Shown piece after piece: positions 25,113 through 61,536 of a DNA stretch of 64,000 nucleotides. The first letter of the stretch is position 1, and each line of letters opens with the position of its first letter. The notes below the pieces were generated by a model that was given only the letters and a program-made list of their open reading frames with translations, was not told the origin of the DNA and did no database searches. The stretch is from assembly GCF_000807255.1 (NCBI RefSeq), contig NZ_CP009268.1, forward strand, positions 1,890,384-1,954,383, read 5' to 3'. The stretch is from Clostridium pasteurianum DSM 525 = ATCC 6013. Its GTDB lineage: Bacteria > Bacillota > Clostridia > Clostridiales > Clostridiaceae. Position numbers and translations under genes: made by a program.

Positions 25113-25469
25113 TTGAAAGAAAGTTTAGTTTATAATAAGGCTTTTGAATTTGCTATAAGAATAGTTAATTTATATAGGTATTTATGTAAAGAAAAAAATG
25201 AATATACTCTTTCAAAACAAGTTTTGAGATCAGGAACTAGTATAGGTGCTAATACAAAAGAAGCAATACAGGCGTCAAGTAAACGGGATTTTCTAATGAA
25301 AATGAATATAGCTTTAAAAGAAGCTTCAGAAACAGATTATTGGCTAAATCTTCTTAAAGCTACTGATTATTTAGATTCAAAACTATCAGAATCAATTATA
25401 AATGATTGTAAAGAGTTAAATAAAATGCTTATATCTATAGTTAAAACAACAAAAGAAAAAGTAAATTAG
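25113..25469 (+). CDS. Four-helix bundle protein (23S rRNA intervening-sequence family)
   Basis: 118 aa, TTG start after AGGAGG. VYNKAFEFAIRIVNLYRYL, SKQVLRSGTSIGANTKEAIQA (about 34-54) and KMNIALKEASETDYWLNLL (about 62-80) are the hallmarks of the TIGR02436/S23 four-helix bundle family. Members occur in rRNA intervening sequences and, more often, as single genes of unknown role; some act as structural partners of retroelements. Its place 185 bp before the flagellin gene and its flanking by inverted heptamer arms are unusual. Confidence 0.85.
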   Translation: MKESLVYNKAFEFAIRIVNLYRYLCKEKNEYTLSKQVLRSGTSIGANTKEAIQASSKRDFLMKMNIALKEASETDYWLNLLKATDYLDSKLSESIINDCKELNKMLISIVKTTKEKVN

Positions 25470-25497
25470 AGATGTGTTAATATTTTACCTATATAGC

Positions 25498-25530
25498 TAA
25501 CTTTCAACTGTCCACTATCAACTTTCAACT
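25498..25530. repeat. Heptamer repeat G (right-type arm)
   Basis: TTTCAACTGTCCACTATCAA, complementary to arm F at 24861, so the pair flanks the four-helix gene as an inverted repeat. Confidence 0.65.
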
Positions 25531-25613
25531 CATTAATGCTAGTAAACTTTCATCTTAACTAACAACCAACAATTGCAAGTTAAATGAAGGATTTATCTAT
25601 AAATCAAAAAAAA

Positions 25614-25627
25614 GGACAAGGATGTCC
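25614..25627 (+). promoter_or_regulatory. CsrA-binding hairpin in the flagellin leader
   Basis: GGACAAGGATGTCC folds as GGACA-AGGA-TGTCC with GGA in the loop, and contains ACAAGGATGT, a full match to the known high-affinity CsrA consensus core ACARGGAUGU. A second GGA lies in the ribosome site GGGAGG (25639-25644). Two such sites allow one CsrA dimer to block the flagellin ribosome site, as shown for Bacillus hag. Confidence 0.8.
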
Positions 25628-25653
25628 GTTAAAAATCAGGGAGGTAACATATT

Positions 25654-27135
25654 ATGATAATTAATCACAATTTAATGGCAAATAATGCTTTAAGAAACAT
25701 GAACATTAACTCTGGTAATGCATCTAAATCAATGCAAAAATTATCTTCAGGTCTTAGAATTAATGGTGCAGCAGATGACGCAGCAGGATTGGCTATATCT
25801 GAAAAAATGAGAGGACAAATTAGAGGTCTTGATCAAGCTTCAAGCAATGCTCAAGATGGTATATCATTAATACAAACTGCTGAAGGTGCATTAAATGAAA
25901 CTCACAGCATTCTTCAAAGAATGAGAGAATTAGCAGTTCAATCAGCTACTGATACTAATACAGATGATGATAGAGCAAAAATCCAGGCTGAAACTGATGA
26001 ACTTGCAAAAGAAATAACTAGAATATCAAATACAACAGAGTTCAATACTCAAAATTTGCTTGCTGGTGGATTGGATGATACTTTCCAAATAGGAGCAAAT
26101 AAAGGTCAAAATATTAATTTGAAAATTTCAGCAATGGATGCACAAAGTTTGGGAGTTTCTGGAAGCAAGTTAAATGCTACATTAGCATCTGGAGCAACTG
26201 ATGTAACTGGAGTTGCATTAAGTGGTGCTAAAGGTACATCAGTAGTGGATGGTAAAACAGTTACAATTTCTGCTAGTGATACTGCTGCAGTTGCAACTTG
26301 GGCTGCTGCTGATACAGGATTAACAGGTACTACAATTAGTACTAAAAACAACACTTCAGATTACAATGGTTGGAAATTTAGCTTTTCAACATCAGGTTCA
26401 TCAACTATTGCAGCTACAGCTGATTCAGCAAATAAAACAATTACATTAACTGGAAGTACAACTGCTGGAGATTGGACAGAGGATGCTATTAATGATGCAT
26501 TAAGTGCAGCCGGATATGGTAGTGTATTTGTTGCAACTGGAGATGCTTCTGCTGTATCTACTAGTACTGGAGTTGTTGCTTCTACAGATGGTTTAGCTGC
26601 TGATGAAGTTTTATTAACAGCTACTGAAGGTTTAAATACTGGTAAAGTAATAGTTAAAGATAATGCAGCAACTGCAACTTTTACAGATGATAAATTTAAA
26701 GGATTATCAATAAGCCTTGATGGATCAAGTAGTGCTTCAACTGCATCTACTATAACATTGGCAACACAACAATCAAGTATTACTACATTTAATGATGATG
26801 GTAGTATAAATAAAGAAGCTATTGCAGCGGCAGGTATTGATGTTTCTACTCAAGAATCTGCAAATACAGCAATAGAAACAATAAACAATGCAATTACAAA
26901 GGTTTCAGAAGAAAGAAGTAAACTTGGTGCTTATTCAAATAGATTAGAGCACACAATAGCTAACTTAGGAACTTCATCAGAAAACTTGACAGCATCTGAA
27001 TCAAGAATAAGAGACGTTGATATGGCAAAAGAAATGTCAACATTCTCAAAAAACAATATTCTTTCTCAAGCTGCTCAAGCTATGTTGGCTCAAGCAAATA
27101 ATCAACCACAGCAGGTTTTACAACTTCTTAGGTAG
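25654..27135 (+). CDS. fliC: Major flagellin
   Basis: 493 aa; ATG 9 nt after GGGAGG. The N-terminal D0/D1 (about 1-170; MIINHNLMANNALRNMNINS, KLSSGLRINGAADDAAGLAI) and C-terminal D1/D0 (about 405-493; DVDMAKEMSTFSKNNILSQA, ending QQVLQLLR) are complete. The centre (about 172-400) is Ser/Thr/Ala/Gly-rich, low in aromatic residues, and is the surface-exposed variable part, likely glycosylated. Filament subunit exported with FliS. The leader has a CsrA hairpin. Immediately after its stop a group I intron core begins, and a second copy of the last codons lies beyond the intron. Confidence 0.96.
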   Translation: MIINHNLMANNALRNMNINSGNASKSMQKLSSGLRINGAADDAAGLAISEKMRGQIRGLDQASSNAQDGISLIQTAEGALNETHSILQRMRELAVQSATDTNTDDDRAKIQAETDELAKEITRISNTTEFNTQNLLAGGLDDTFQIGANKGQNINLKISAMDAQSLGVSGSKLNATLASGATDVTGVALSGAKGTSVVDGKTVTISASDTAAVATWAAADTGLTGTTISTKNNTSDYNGWKFSFSTSGSSTIAATADSANKTITLTGSTTAGDWTEDAINDALSAAGYGSVFVATGDASAVSTSTGVVASTDGLAADEVLLTATEGLNTGKVIVKDNAATATFTDDKFKGLSISLDGSSSASTASTITLATQQSSITTFNDDGSINKEAIAAAGIDVSTQESANTAIETINNAITKVSEERSKLGAYSNRLEHTIANLGTSSENLTASESRIRDVDMAKEMSTFSKNNILSQAAQAMLAQANNQPQQVLQLLR

Positions 27136-27337
27136 GATTATTTGAGGGTCTCTTAAAGAGTAATCTTTAAGCACACATTGGGTGAATTGCTGGAACTTCC
27201 TTAAGATGTTTCTCTACAACGAAGTTCGAAAGGACAGGCGTGAAGGATTGAAAAGCAAACAGATTGGATAATCAGCAGCCAAGCTCCTGGATCGAAAGGT
27301 TGGAGAAGGTTCAACGACTAGAGTATACCACCTAAGC

Positions 27338-27370
27338 AGTTGACAATTGATAGTGGATAGTTGACAGTTA
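27338..27370. repeat. Heptamer repeat H inside the group I intron
   Basis: AGTTGACAATTGATAGTGGA, then TAGTTGACAGTT, between the R and S elements, where a peripheral loop is expected. Confidence 0.7.
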
Positions 27371-27451
27371 AAAACATTACTATCATTTAAAAATTTGTAT
27401 GGTGATGAAACTCGTAGGGATGAGGTTTCCCGAAGTGCCCAACCCCAGAAG

Positions 27452-27486
27452 ACAGTTGAAAGTTGAGAGTCGATAGTGGAAAGTTA
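27452..27486. repeat. Heptamer repeat I inside the group I intron
   Basis: ACAGTTGAAAGTTGAGAGTC, then GATAGTGGAAAGTT, again between R and S. Same orientation as H, so the two do not form one hairpin. Confidence 0.7.
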
Positions 27487-27569
27487 AAAAATTCCTATCA
27501 ATCTTAAGCATAAATTGATTATGGGTGAAGATATAGTCTGGCAATGATTGAAAGGTCATTGATGAAACG

Positions 27570-27614
27570 CAAGCAAATCAACAACCTCAACAGGTTCTTC
27601 AATTATTGAGATAA
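27570..27614 (+). pseudogene. Second flagellin C-terminus (exon 2 or remnant)
   Basis: 15 codons reading QANQQPQQVLQLLR then TAA. The last 15 codons of the flagellin gene at 27091-27135 read QANNQPQQVLQLLR then TAG. The DNA of the two copies differs at many third positions while the peptide is nearly the same. It is either the downstream exon of a spliced flagellin or the end of a lost second flagellin gene. If the 5' splice site is after T at 27090, splicing would give the same frame. Confidence 0.75.
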
Positions 27615-28084
27615 TTGAGAATTTAGTAAGAATAATTAGGAGGAGTCAGGGTGAAAACTCTGGCTTCTTTGTTATTGCTTTAATATTTTAAAATGTCATA
27701 GTTTTATATTTATTTTCATAAAATATTTCAGATAAATTCATGAGATGTATTAAAAGGTGTTGATTTACAATAAAAATTTCTTGACAATCTACAGTAAGGC
27801 TTTTTATTTGATATAAAGTTGATATTTTATAGTTGAAGAATTGATGAAAATTAGAATAAAAATGTTATAATAAGTTTATATTGGTAAATATACAGTTTAG
27901 TATATATTATTAAAAGATATATAAGCATGAAATTATAGTATATTTAATAGAAAAGGTATTAAATTAACTAATTAAAGTTATTGAAAGAAAAATGCTTCAA
28001 AATATAAGTTAAGTAAATTCAATATAGATTGAGATGTTTTTGAGGAAAGCAAAATAATATATAGAAAGTATGATGGGAATATAA
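27615..28084. other. 470-bp AT-rich gap after flagellin
   Basis: It holds a hairpin at 27644-27671 (see below) and then about 400 bp of very AT-rich DNA before the DUF4263 gene. TTGACA at 27781 has no well-spaced -10 box. I see no gene, REP or heptamer island here. Confidence 0.5.
27644..27671 (+). terminator. Probable terminator of the flagellin transcript
   Basis: AGTCAGGGT / AACTCTGGCT stem with G-U pairs and a GAAA-type loop, followed by a T-rich but broken run (TCTTTGTTATT). Confidence 0.6.
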
Positions 28085-32465: not shown

Positions 32466-32969
32466 CTATTTCTTTATCAGTAAGACCAGTGAGTTTTGAG
32501 TTAATAATATATTTTCATCTTCTGAGAAGTTAAGTGTATAGATAGATATTCTTGGAAAAATGTAAATGGAGCCATTTTTTCTCTTACTTGAATCTATAAC
32601 CAATGAACCATCATCCATATATAGACATGCTAATCCTATTGGATGATCCAGTAACAGCAGATTTTCTTTTGTAATAGATTTTTCTCCATTTATATAAAAG
32701 CTATTATAAAGATTAGTATAGACCTTATTACTAGGGGAACGTAGTTGTGGATTTTTGCATGTAATTAAGAGTTTAAAGTCAAGATTTTTAAGTTTATCAG
32801 CTTTCCATTGTCTATAAGGAACTTGTTTTGTGCATCCATGTTCTCTATAGTATGCATTTTTACTTCTGCCATAAAGAGCTAAGCTGCCATCACCAAGTAA
32901 GCCTCCAATTATTATATTTCTTTCTAATCTATTCATATCATATATCTTAGTATTTTCAACGAAAGGCAT
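32466..32969 (-). CDS. LAGLIDADG homing endonuclease, C-terminus altered
   Basis: 167 aa; AAGGAGATAG precedes the ATG. Two LAGLIDADG-type helices are visible, IIIGGLLGDGSLAL (about 19-32) and GLACLYMDDGSLVI (about 112-125), each ending in the catalytic acidic residue (GDG, DDG). The usual 40-60 residues after the second motif are missing: the frame breaks at about SEDENILL. In another frame the DNA continues as LTGLTDKEIASALNRIYWGV, a helix-turn-helix-like tail down to about 32400, so the gene is probably truncated or frameshifted. It stands outside any intron that I can see. Confidence 0.75.
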   Translation of the reverse strand: MPFVENTKIYDMNRLERNIIIGGLLGDGSLALYGRSKNAYYREHGCTKQVPYRQWKADKLKNLDFKLLITCKNPQLRSPSNKVYTNLYNSFYINGEKSITKENLLLLDHPIGLACLYMDDGSLVIDSSKRKNGSIYIFPRISIYTLNFSEDENILLTQNSLVLLIKK

Positions 32970-42052: not shown

Positions 42053-42717
42053 GTGCGCCAAGCAAAGGGCACAATGTATAGCAGGTGGGAATCCTGCAAT
42101 GCATAGGGTGACAGGCACTTATAAAAATTTAGAAATAGCTGAAGATAAAACTAAAATTATATATTTTGGGAAAAAGGCATGCTTTGATATAAAAATTGGA
42201 AGAATACAGAAGAAGTTTCAGCCGAAAACATTTGATTTTCTGGGATTTACTCATTATTGTAGCTGCAGAATGAATGGTAGTTTTAGAGTTAAAGGGAAAA
42301 CGAGTAGTAAGAAATTTCGAGCCAGTCTAATGAAAGTTAAAGTTTGGACTAGAGCGAATATGCATATGCCGTTAGATATTCTGTTTAAGAAACTAAATAG
42401 AAAACTACAAGGCTATTACAGGTATTATGGTATTACAGACAATTCAAGTAGTATGAGTAAATTTAAATACCAGGTACAAAGAATACTATTTAAAATCTTA
42501 AATAGAAGAAGTCAAAAGAGGAGCTTTAATTGGGAAGAATATAATAAACTACTGAAGATATTTAAACTTCAGAGTCCTAAAATATATGTAAATATATTTG
42601 AATTAAGAAAGGAAATTAGCTATATTATGTAATGGTAATATGAAAAGCCGGATGCGGGAAATCCGCAAGTCCGGTTTTGTGAGGGTTGCGAGAAAGTGAT
42701 TTCTCCCTCTACTCGAC
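42053..42717 (+). mobile_element. Internally deleted group II intron
   Basis: The 5' end is GTGCGCCAAGCAAAGGGCAC, matching the bacterial group II start GTGYG. The 3' end has domain V-like AGCCGGATGCGGGAAATCCG, CAAGTCCGGTTTTGTGAGGG and ends CTACTCGAC. Between them is only the end of the reverse transcriptase, so domains II-III and most of the protein are missing. Joining the flanks (AGGAACTGTGA and CTTGGGAAAAA) restores the REP core found elsewhere in the window, which fixes both ends to the base. Confidence 0.85.
42123..42632 (+). pseudogene. C-terminal fragment of group II intron reverse transcriptase/maturase
   Basis: The frame from about 42123 (LEIAEDKTKIIYFGKKA, then FDFLGFTHYCSCRMNGSFRV and KLNRKLQGYYRYYGITDN) is the thumb and maturase (domain X) part of LtrA-type proteins. 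The palm with the YADD active site is missing, so it cannot be an active reverse transcriptase. The 5' boundary lies in a TAGGGTGACAGGCACTT sequence shared with the REP at 39331, which suggests that the deletion involved this REP. Confidence 0.88.
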
Positions 42718-60663: not shown

Positions 60664-61536
60664 ATGAGATTAAGTCATAACTTAGCATCATTAAATATAT
60701 ATTATGCATATACTAAAAATATTAATAATCAAAGTATAGCTCTTAATAGATTGACTTCTGGGAAAAAAGTCAATAGTTCCTTAGATGATCCAGATGCATT
60801 ATCTAAAAGTGAAAAGCTGAATATGCAGATAAGAGGACTTCAGGCAGGAGCAAGAAATTCTCAGGATGGAGTTAGTATGCTTCAAACTGCAGAAGGAGGT
60901 CTAAGTAATATAAGTGATGATCTTCAGAGAATAAGAGAACTTGTGGTGTCTTCTGGAAATGGAACCCTTACGGATAATGATAAAAAAAATATTCAAATGG
61001 AAATAGATCAGCTGAAGCAGAACATTAATGAAATAGCTAATAATACTGAATTTAATGGAGTTAAATTATTAAGTGCCAATTCAACTGATGGAAGTTATTA
61101 TAATAATAGTAATCCTACATCTAATATAGCGGCGTCTGTAAGTGGAGATGTGGGTGATACTGTAACAATACCAAGATTTAATATAACTACAGCTATGCAG
61201 GATTCAAATGGTAACACTTTAGAAAATTTGGACATAACTAAAGAAAATTCTGTAGATGAAAATTTAAATTCGATAGATTCTGCAATAAAAGATGCAATAC
61301 ATGCCAGAAGTGTATATGGTGGTTTAGAAAATAGATTTAATACTACTTATAATAATACCAATGAAATATCTGACAAGCTTGAAGAGACAGGTAGTGATTT
61401 AAGTGATGCAGATATAGCTTCCGAGATTATGGAATATTCAAAGTCTGGAATTTTAATTAGTGCAGGTATAGCTATGATGGCACAGACAAACAAATTTCCA
61501 CAGGATATATTAAATATATTAAGTAGAATTAAATAA
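60664..61536 (+). CDS. Second, shorter flagellin
   Basis: 290 aa; ATG 7 nt after TGGAG. The N-terminal D0/D1 (MRLSHNLASLNIYYAYTKNI, RLTSGKKVNSSLDDPDALSK) and C-terminal D1/D0 (DIASEIMEYSKSGILISAGI, ending QDILNILSRIK) are complete. The variable part is short (about 140-200). The N-terminus diverges from the major flagellin and the end lacks the VLQLLR motif, so it is a distinct minor filament protein rather than a recent duplicate. Own sigma-D-type promoter and terminator. Confidence 0.93.
   Translation: MRLSHNLASLNIYYAYTKNINNQSIALNRLTSGKKVNSSLDDPDALSKSEKLNMQIRGLQAGARNSQDGVSMLQTAEGGLSNISDDLQRIRELVVSSGNGTLTDNDKKNIQMEIDQLKQNINEIANNTEFNGVKLLSANSTDGSYYNNSNPTSNIAASVSGDVGDTVTIPRFNITTAMQDSNGNTLENLDITKENSVDENLNSIDSAIKDAIHARSVYGGLENRFNTTYNNTNEISDKLEETGSDLSDADIASEIMEYSKSGILISAGIAMMAQTNKFPQDILNILSRIK

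Follow-up and report, generated by a model that had tools for sequence, protein, structure and literature searches.

The closest described counterparts of the intron considered here are the flagellin group I introns of Geobacillus and of thermophilic Bacillus (Hayakawa and Ishizuka 2009, 2012), which the open-access sources present as self-splicing and temperature-dependent (PMC3984707, PMC4853749). The intron of this study has the same setting, a flagellin gene of the Bacillota. A second point of comparison is the combined c-di-GMP riboswitch and group I intron of Clostridioides difficile (Lee et al. 2010, as described in PMC3984707 and PMC8987985). Both are clostridial group I introns whose outcome alters, or here would alter, the coding product; by these accounts, however, the C. 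difficile element affects the ribosome-binding site, whereas here it is the flagellin C-terminus. In the window, that is, the whole 64,000-nucleotide stretch of Clostridium pasteurianum DSM 525 that was analysed, there is no aptamer or riboswitch match: only RF00028 and RF00029 have matches at the gathering thresholds, the latter being a group II intron domain match at 42643-42717 (+ strand, 55.6 bits).

IStrons, in which an IS605-type element is joined to a group I intron, are likewise group I introns within Bacillota protein-coding genes as they are described in PMC3984707. The flagellin intron differs from them in that no embedded IS605-type transposase gene is found, the list of open reading frames holding none of 60 aa or more inside 27136-27569. 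Many group I introns have an in-frame stop near their start, which the same source sees as shielding the core from ribosomes (PMC3984707). The flagellin intron also has an in-frame stop 5' of its catalytic core, but in this family that stop comes after a surrogate C-terminus (at the insertion position of this locus, site C) or an AA-ending tail (at two other flagellin positions, sites A and B). The duplicated C-terminus and the AA tails are undescribed in the open-access literature searched, a scope outside which the primary flagellin-intron papers (Hayakawa and Ishizuka) fall. The finding, a group I intron with its own replacement 3' exon, is more general than a single locus.

The flagellin locus and its two C-terminal copies

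Because bacterial translation is coupled to transcription, ribosomes arrive at a group I intron in a protein-coding gene ahead of its splicing, and such introns are therefore regarded as costly. The intron in this flagellin gene most probably carries a surrogate 3' exon in its first 45 nt, such that a complete flagellin would be made from either the spliced or the unspliced mRNA. Its splicing is what we infer from the sequence. The features of the locus are as follows.

25654..27135, + strand: flagellin reading frame on the unspliced mRNA, 493 aa (Pfam Flagellin_N and Flagellin_C)
25654..27090, + strand: exon 1, with the predicted 5' splice site after T27090 (from the P1 register; joined to exon 2 it gives 493 aa without internal stop)
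27091..27569, + strand: group I intron, 479 nt (RF00028 match 27129-27560; ends predicted from the P1 register and omega-G)
27091..27135, + strand: surrogate C-terminus (copy 1), 14 codons and TAG, within the intron (two-copy comparison, conservation)
27185..27195, + strand: P element, P3/P4 strand (covariance-model match, sequence positions)
27270..27280, + strand: Q element (covariance-model match, sequence positions)
27309..27320, + strand: R element (covariance-model match, sequence positions)
27528..27538, + strand: S element, P7 3' strand (covariance-model match, sequence positions)
27569, + strand: omega-G, predicted 3' splice site (sequence; equal position before exon 2 in 12 family members)
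27570..27614, + strand: exon 2 (copy 2), the true C-terminal 14 codons and TAA (two-copy comparison, conservation)
27639..27670, + strand: terminator-like stem-loop (terminator scan)

The preliminary description of this DNA had placed a group I core directly after the flagellin stop, and a covariance-model search finds it there. RF00028 matches 27129-27560 with 71.5 bits against a cut-off of 50 (E 3.6e-16), this being the single match of that model in the 4.35-Mb genome, and the elements that we take to be P, Q, R and S (27185, 27270, 27309 and 27528) are present in the expected order. The two copies of the C-terminal codons and the many synonymous differences between them, both noticed earlier, are equally real. 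Copy 1 encodes QANNQPQQVLQLLR and a stop at 27091-27135 and copy 2 encodes QANQQPQQVLQLLR and a stop at 27570-27614, with 33 of 45 nt and 13 of 14 residues identical; seven codons differ synonymously and one nonsynonymously. The best match to copy 1 among 500 shuffles of the following kilobase is 27 of 45 nt, compared with the real 33. The intron is inserted after an Ala codon and before a Gln codon (LA/QAN), 14 codons upstream of the flagellin stop, and G27569, directly 5' of copy 2, stands in the place expected for omega-G. On the + strand from 25400 to 27800 the sole terminator-like site is 3' of copy 2 (27639-27670), so that copy 2 is within the predicted transcript, as is copy 1.

Two further observations concern the surroundings of these features. 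One loop of the intron, at about 27453-27491, contains a dispersed repeat (agttgaaagttgagagtcgatagtgg-like); eight other places in the genome match about 27453-27493, one further match overlaps the intron copy, and a similar sequence lies upstream of the flagellin gene at about 25500-25535. The window also contains a second flagellin-like gene (60667-61521, + strand), short, divergent and without this intron, which has 41% identity over its N-terminal part and the C-terminus MMAQTNKFPQDILNILSRIK.

The predicted P1 hairpin and two candidate 5' splice sites

Two positions had been put forward for the 5' splice site. The first is after T27090, where both RNAs would code for a full C-terminus. The second is after the stop, near GGATT (27139), where splicing would trim the 3' UTR and copy 2 would be a non-coding relic. 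The elements on which the choice turns are listed here.

27087..27091, + strand: P1 5' strand GGCUC, with U27090 at the splice site (fold; 117 of 132 relatives)
27146..27150, + strand: P1 3' strand GGGUC, the internal guide sequence (fold)
27095..27103, + strand: P1 extension 5' strand CAAAUAAUC, surrogate codons 2-5 (fold; covariation)
27136..27144, + strand: P1 extension 3' strand GAUUAUUUG, directly 3' of the surrogate stop (fold; covariation)
27152..27171, + strand: P2 hairpin (fold)

The segment 27084-27152 is predicted to fold with GGCUC (27087-27091) on GGGUC (27146-27150) and CAAAUAAUC on GAUUAUUUG, at -19.8 kcal/mol (z -3.55, with none of 200 shuffles as low). P1 proper is short, at 4-5 pairs. 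The predicted fold contains the pair U27090.G27147, and a U at -1 with the second guide G recurs in 117 of 132 relatives among the matches listed; it is missing from the predicted fold of the other 15, in at least one of which (L004) the folded segment was too short. Minimum-energy folding of the whole intron is uninformative: the result does not outperform shuffled sequences (z -1.10), and the core fails to appear in it.

The extension of P1 can be followed across the relatives by pairing surrogate codons 2-7 with the gene's own post-stop strand and with the strands of other genes. For 102 unique pairs among the matches listed (L049, L056 and L132 excluded), the own strand gives -6.17 compared with -3.78 (sd 0.17) for shuffled partners, and none of 20,000 shuffles is as strong; the shuffle statistics are inflated by the relatedness of the sequences. 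The same result, 0 of 20,000, is obtained separately in 86 Bacilli and in 15 Clostridia-type genes, and with one record per distinct peptide the figures are 0 of 20,000 (23 Bacilli) and 188 of 20,000 (5 Clostridia-type). Exact compensatory pairs occur (AAUAAUC/GAUUAUU, AAUACUC/GAGUAUU, AAUUCUC/GAGAAUU), and the post-stop strand pairs better with copy 1 than with copy 2 in 90 of 100 cases. This covariation places the surrogate inside an extended P1 hairpin, which also explains a peculiarity of its peptide: of 15 clostridial surrogates, 13 have N, T or S at codon 4, as against Q in copy 2 and in all 11 intronless clostridial flagellins, most of which were found by similarity to copy 2, a route that favours Q. 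Taken together, the P1 fold, the U.G pair and the covariation point to a 5' splice site after T27090, and the recurrence of the layout supports the same position.

A splice site near GGATT is very improbable by comparison with what these relatives contain. It does have the Rfam alignment on its side, which draws P1 in the post-stop region (about 27133 to 27150), and the GGATT/GGTCT pairing proposed for it is possible in the window; at least four such pairs can form in 42 of 110 relatives among the matches listed. In the relatives, however, the pairing is weak, with a mean stem energy of -1.0 kcal/mol compared with -18.7 kcal/mol for the site after T27090. The stretch from the stop to the guide is 7-12 nt in 105 of the 110, and the post-stop strand covaries with surrogate codons. 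Splicing after the stop predicts an untranslated copy 2 that is free to decay, but copy 2 is conserved as protein and is intact in 130 of 133 introns among the matches listed. The accompanying P10, CAAG with TTTG, is not conserved, since the linker before GGG varies; no conserved P10, and no substitute for this one, is found among the alignments of the relatives. The idea that copy 2 remains from a lost tandem flagellin fits badly because the intron is followed by just a 14-codon 3' exon in 130 of 133, and we rejected it together with the post-stop site on the 110 relatives among the matches listed.

With the 5' splice site after T27090, the two mRNAs would be read as follows. On the unspliced mRNA the ribosome would read 14 codons into the intron and meet a stop within the extended P1 hairpin, giving a complete flagellin ending in QANNQPQQVLQLLR; on the spliced mRNA it would read into exon 2 and give a nearly identical complete flagellin ending in QANQQPQQVLQLLR. 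The same nucleotides would both code and fold, surrogate codons 2-5 pairing with the strand just 3' of the surrogate stop, and translation of the last codons would thus compete with the formation of P1. Ribosomes that reach the intron before splicing would finish on the surrogate and halt in the P1 loop, short of the core; upon their release P1 could form and the RNA could splice. Such early ribosomes would otherwise make a truncated flagellin, so the surrogate would render the race harmless: with a complete protein from either mRNA, translation and splicing could compete at no cost to the protein. That the RNA is spliced in vivo at these positions, that both mRNAs are translated and that ribosomes race with splicing are deductions from the patterns above and from those in the relatives.

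Recurrence of the layout and conservation of both copies

We examine 206 genomes of the family, 14 of which have a match at E 1e-12 or better. Twelve of them have a flagellin with the whole layout (copy 1 and stop, intron, omega-G, copy 2 and stop), and both copies are kept in 12 of 12; the other two matches cover 45 nt of copy 2 only (G064) and part of the core only (G226). A scan of the genomes of 84,980 species, for a pattern in which codons 1-5 of copy 2 are fixed, gives at least 118 loci with 119 matches in more than 30 named genera, mostly Bacillales and some Clostridia. Eight matches too close to the locus start, one at a contig end (L044) and four without an intact flagellin beside the matched intron (L068, L079, L133, L144) were excluded before counting. 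Among 193 genomes of a Bacilli family, 87 match a Bacillus flagellin intron to some extent and 36 do so over its full or nearly full length.

Of the 133 distinct site-C introns among the matches listed, 132 have an intact copy 1 and 130 an intact copy 2; of the three without an intact copy 2, two run past the locus end and one is degenerate. Both copies are also intact in all 32 site-C introns that were obtained by similarity and not by the copy-2 pattern. The core elements are conserved between Clostridia and Bacilli, and a search with RF00028 of the loci of seven relatives matches six (eight matches in total), the exception being a site-B locus (L164). The only site-C intron with stop codons in its surrogate is that of Oceanobacillus arenosus (L056), where the surrogate is therefore not indispensable; this locus is a natural test of the need for a surrogate.

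The preliminary description had suggested that selection kept the peptide in both copies, and this holds for the family as a whole. Over codons 6-14, copies 1 and 2 of 108 genes among the matches listed differ by 779 synonymous and 46 nonsynonymous nucleotides, compared with 26% synonymous expected for random changes (L059, L060, L093 and L152, whose genomes were already included, and rows without a full 45-nt copy were left out). This excess of synonymous change indicates that both copies are kept as protein. The copies agree within a gene even where the family varies. At codon 8 (Q, G, A or S) the pairs in the 108 genes are G/G 91, Q/Q 9, A/A 4, S/S 3 and S/A 1, and at codon 14 (R, Q or G) they are R/R 96, Q/Q 5 and G/G 4, with 3 mismatched. 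The peptide of codons 6-14 is identical in both copies of 89 of 110 genes among the matches listed, not in all. An untranslated copy 2 should decay, as should an untranslated copy 1.

These comparisons bear on the possibility that the intron splices rarely or no longer, the flagellin coming from copy 1 alone and copy 2 being present through conversion from intronless alleles or a recent insertion. The surrogate by itself could serve the cell, and the intron family appears to be mobile, but we consider such a loss of the predicted splicing quite unlikely. The mean DNA identity of the copies within a gene is 0.71 (range 0.58-0.82, n=108), an average difference of 29%, so that recent conversion does not account for the agreement of the peptides. 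The conservation of the core from Clostridia to Bacilli also argues against a loss of splicing, as do site-A introns in the same genes, which need splicing for any complete flagellin. Two species of Anoxybacillus (L062, L072) have both a site-A and a site-C intron.

A regulated isoform switch is somewhat less improbable, although we still regard it as unlikely. In such a switch the spliced and unspliced mRNAs would give differing flagellins or 3' ends in a ratio set by temperature or GTP, and the surrogate would be a switch arm, not a safeguard. Temperature-dependent splicing is reported for flagellin introns in the open-access account (PMC4853749), and in Bacilli codons 2-5 of the surrogates differ from those of exon 2 (for example SNQM vs ANQQ). 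The varying residues, however, track the RNA pairing and show no single conserved alternative, and at gathering thresholds the window has no riboswitch.

Sister introns, AA tails and a downstream endonuclease

Related cores occur at two more positions of flagellin genes, site A (RDVD/MAKEM) and site B (within the Leu codon of AML), which leave about 37 and about 15 codons downstream, respectively. At both sites the unspliced frame is a truncated flagellin. It ends in AA and a stop in 49 of 50 introns at site A (37 of them YALAA; the exception ends in VA) and in 8 of 8 at site B, counting introns whose upstream flagellin frame ends within 140 nt of the core motif. The sister introns noted with AA-stop tails are L160, L162, L164, L165, L166-L168, L169 and L170-L173, together with the 50 rows at site A. 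As a control, 17 ribonucleotide-reductase introns (identified by Pfam) with a stop before the core have SR 12 times, PK 3 times, SA once and AA once as the last residues; the frame runs on in L231 and L232, and L234 has no open reading frame. On a tree of 105 cores the site-C introns of Clostridia group together as a single clade (100/98), and placing the labels A, B, C-Clostridia and C-Bacilli on it takes five changes.

AA-ending tmRNA tags are recognized by ClpX. The tails at sites A and B resemble tmRNA tags, which are predicted in three of six genomes with the ends ALAA, ALAA and YAA, and they are possible degradation tails. The last position at site A uses all four Ala codons (GCT 26, GCC 10, GCA 7, GCG 7), and the second base of this codon is unpaired in the predicted P1 hairpin in 9 of 50, where it is still C. 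A G+C-rich P1 stem at site A could itself favour GCN codons without any role in degradation, and the relatedness of the site-A and site-B sequences weakens the case for the tails. We hold it as a tentative proposal, to which we give a little under even credence, that the flagellin intron family evolved to control the fate of the unspliced product, with a replacement C-terminus at the last site and, upstream, an AA tail leading to ClpXP-type degradation. Exon length as the factor that decides between surrogate and tail was considered and dropped, because site B has the AA tail although it leaves about 15 codons, just one more than site C.

A gene downstream of the flagellin gene in the window may concern the spread of the intron.

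32466..32969, - strand: LAGLIDADG_2 endonuclease gene, convergent with the flagellin gene, possibly truncated; candidate mobility partner (67.2 bits to Pfam PF03161, over positions 1-136 of the 168 in the profile)

This gene is 4.9 kb from the flagellin intron. Its relatives are found at 37 site-C loci among the matches listed. All are convergent with the flagellin gene and lie on its downstream side, 36 at a distance within 2 kb; in most, the distance from the surrogate stop is about 0.8-0.9 kb. Where the matches listed hold 2 kb of downstream sequence (77 site-C loci), the endonuclease is present in 20 of 77. A second endonuclease subtype (query from L165) is found at five of seven loci that have a site-A but no site-C intron, and the window's subtype at none of the seven. 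In collaborative homing, as in some phages, a free-standing endonuclease serves an intron in a neighbouring gene. The present arrangement would be comparable at the loci that have the endonuclease gene beside, not inside, the intron-bearing gene; it differs in that it occurs on bacterial chromosomes, next to flagellin, and its role in homing is putative. Since the endonuclease gene stands beside intron-bearing flagellins, its product may spread the intron along with its 3' exon.

For the problem of group I introns in translated genes, this intron family would represent an evolved answer: the missing end of the protein lies inside the splice-site hairpin, and one stretch of RNA is both code and part of a ribozyme. 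How introns survive in highly translated bacterial genes thereby becomes open to direct test, many Bacillota providing natural replicates. Should the AA tails indeed be degradation signals, one intron family would have arrived at two opposite solutions for its unspliced product, repair and disposal.
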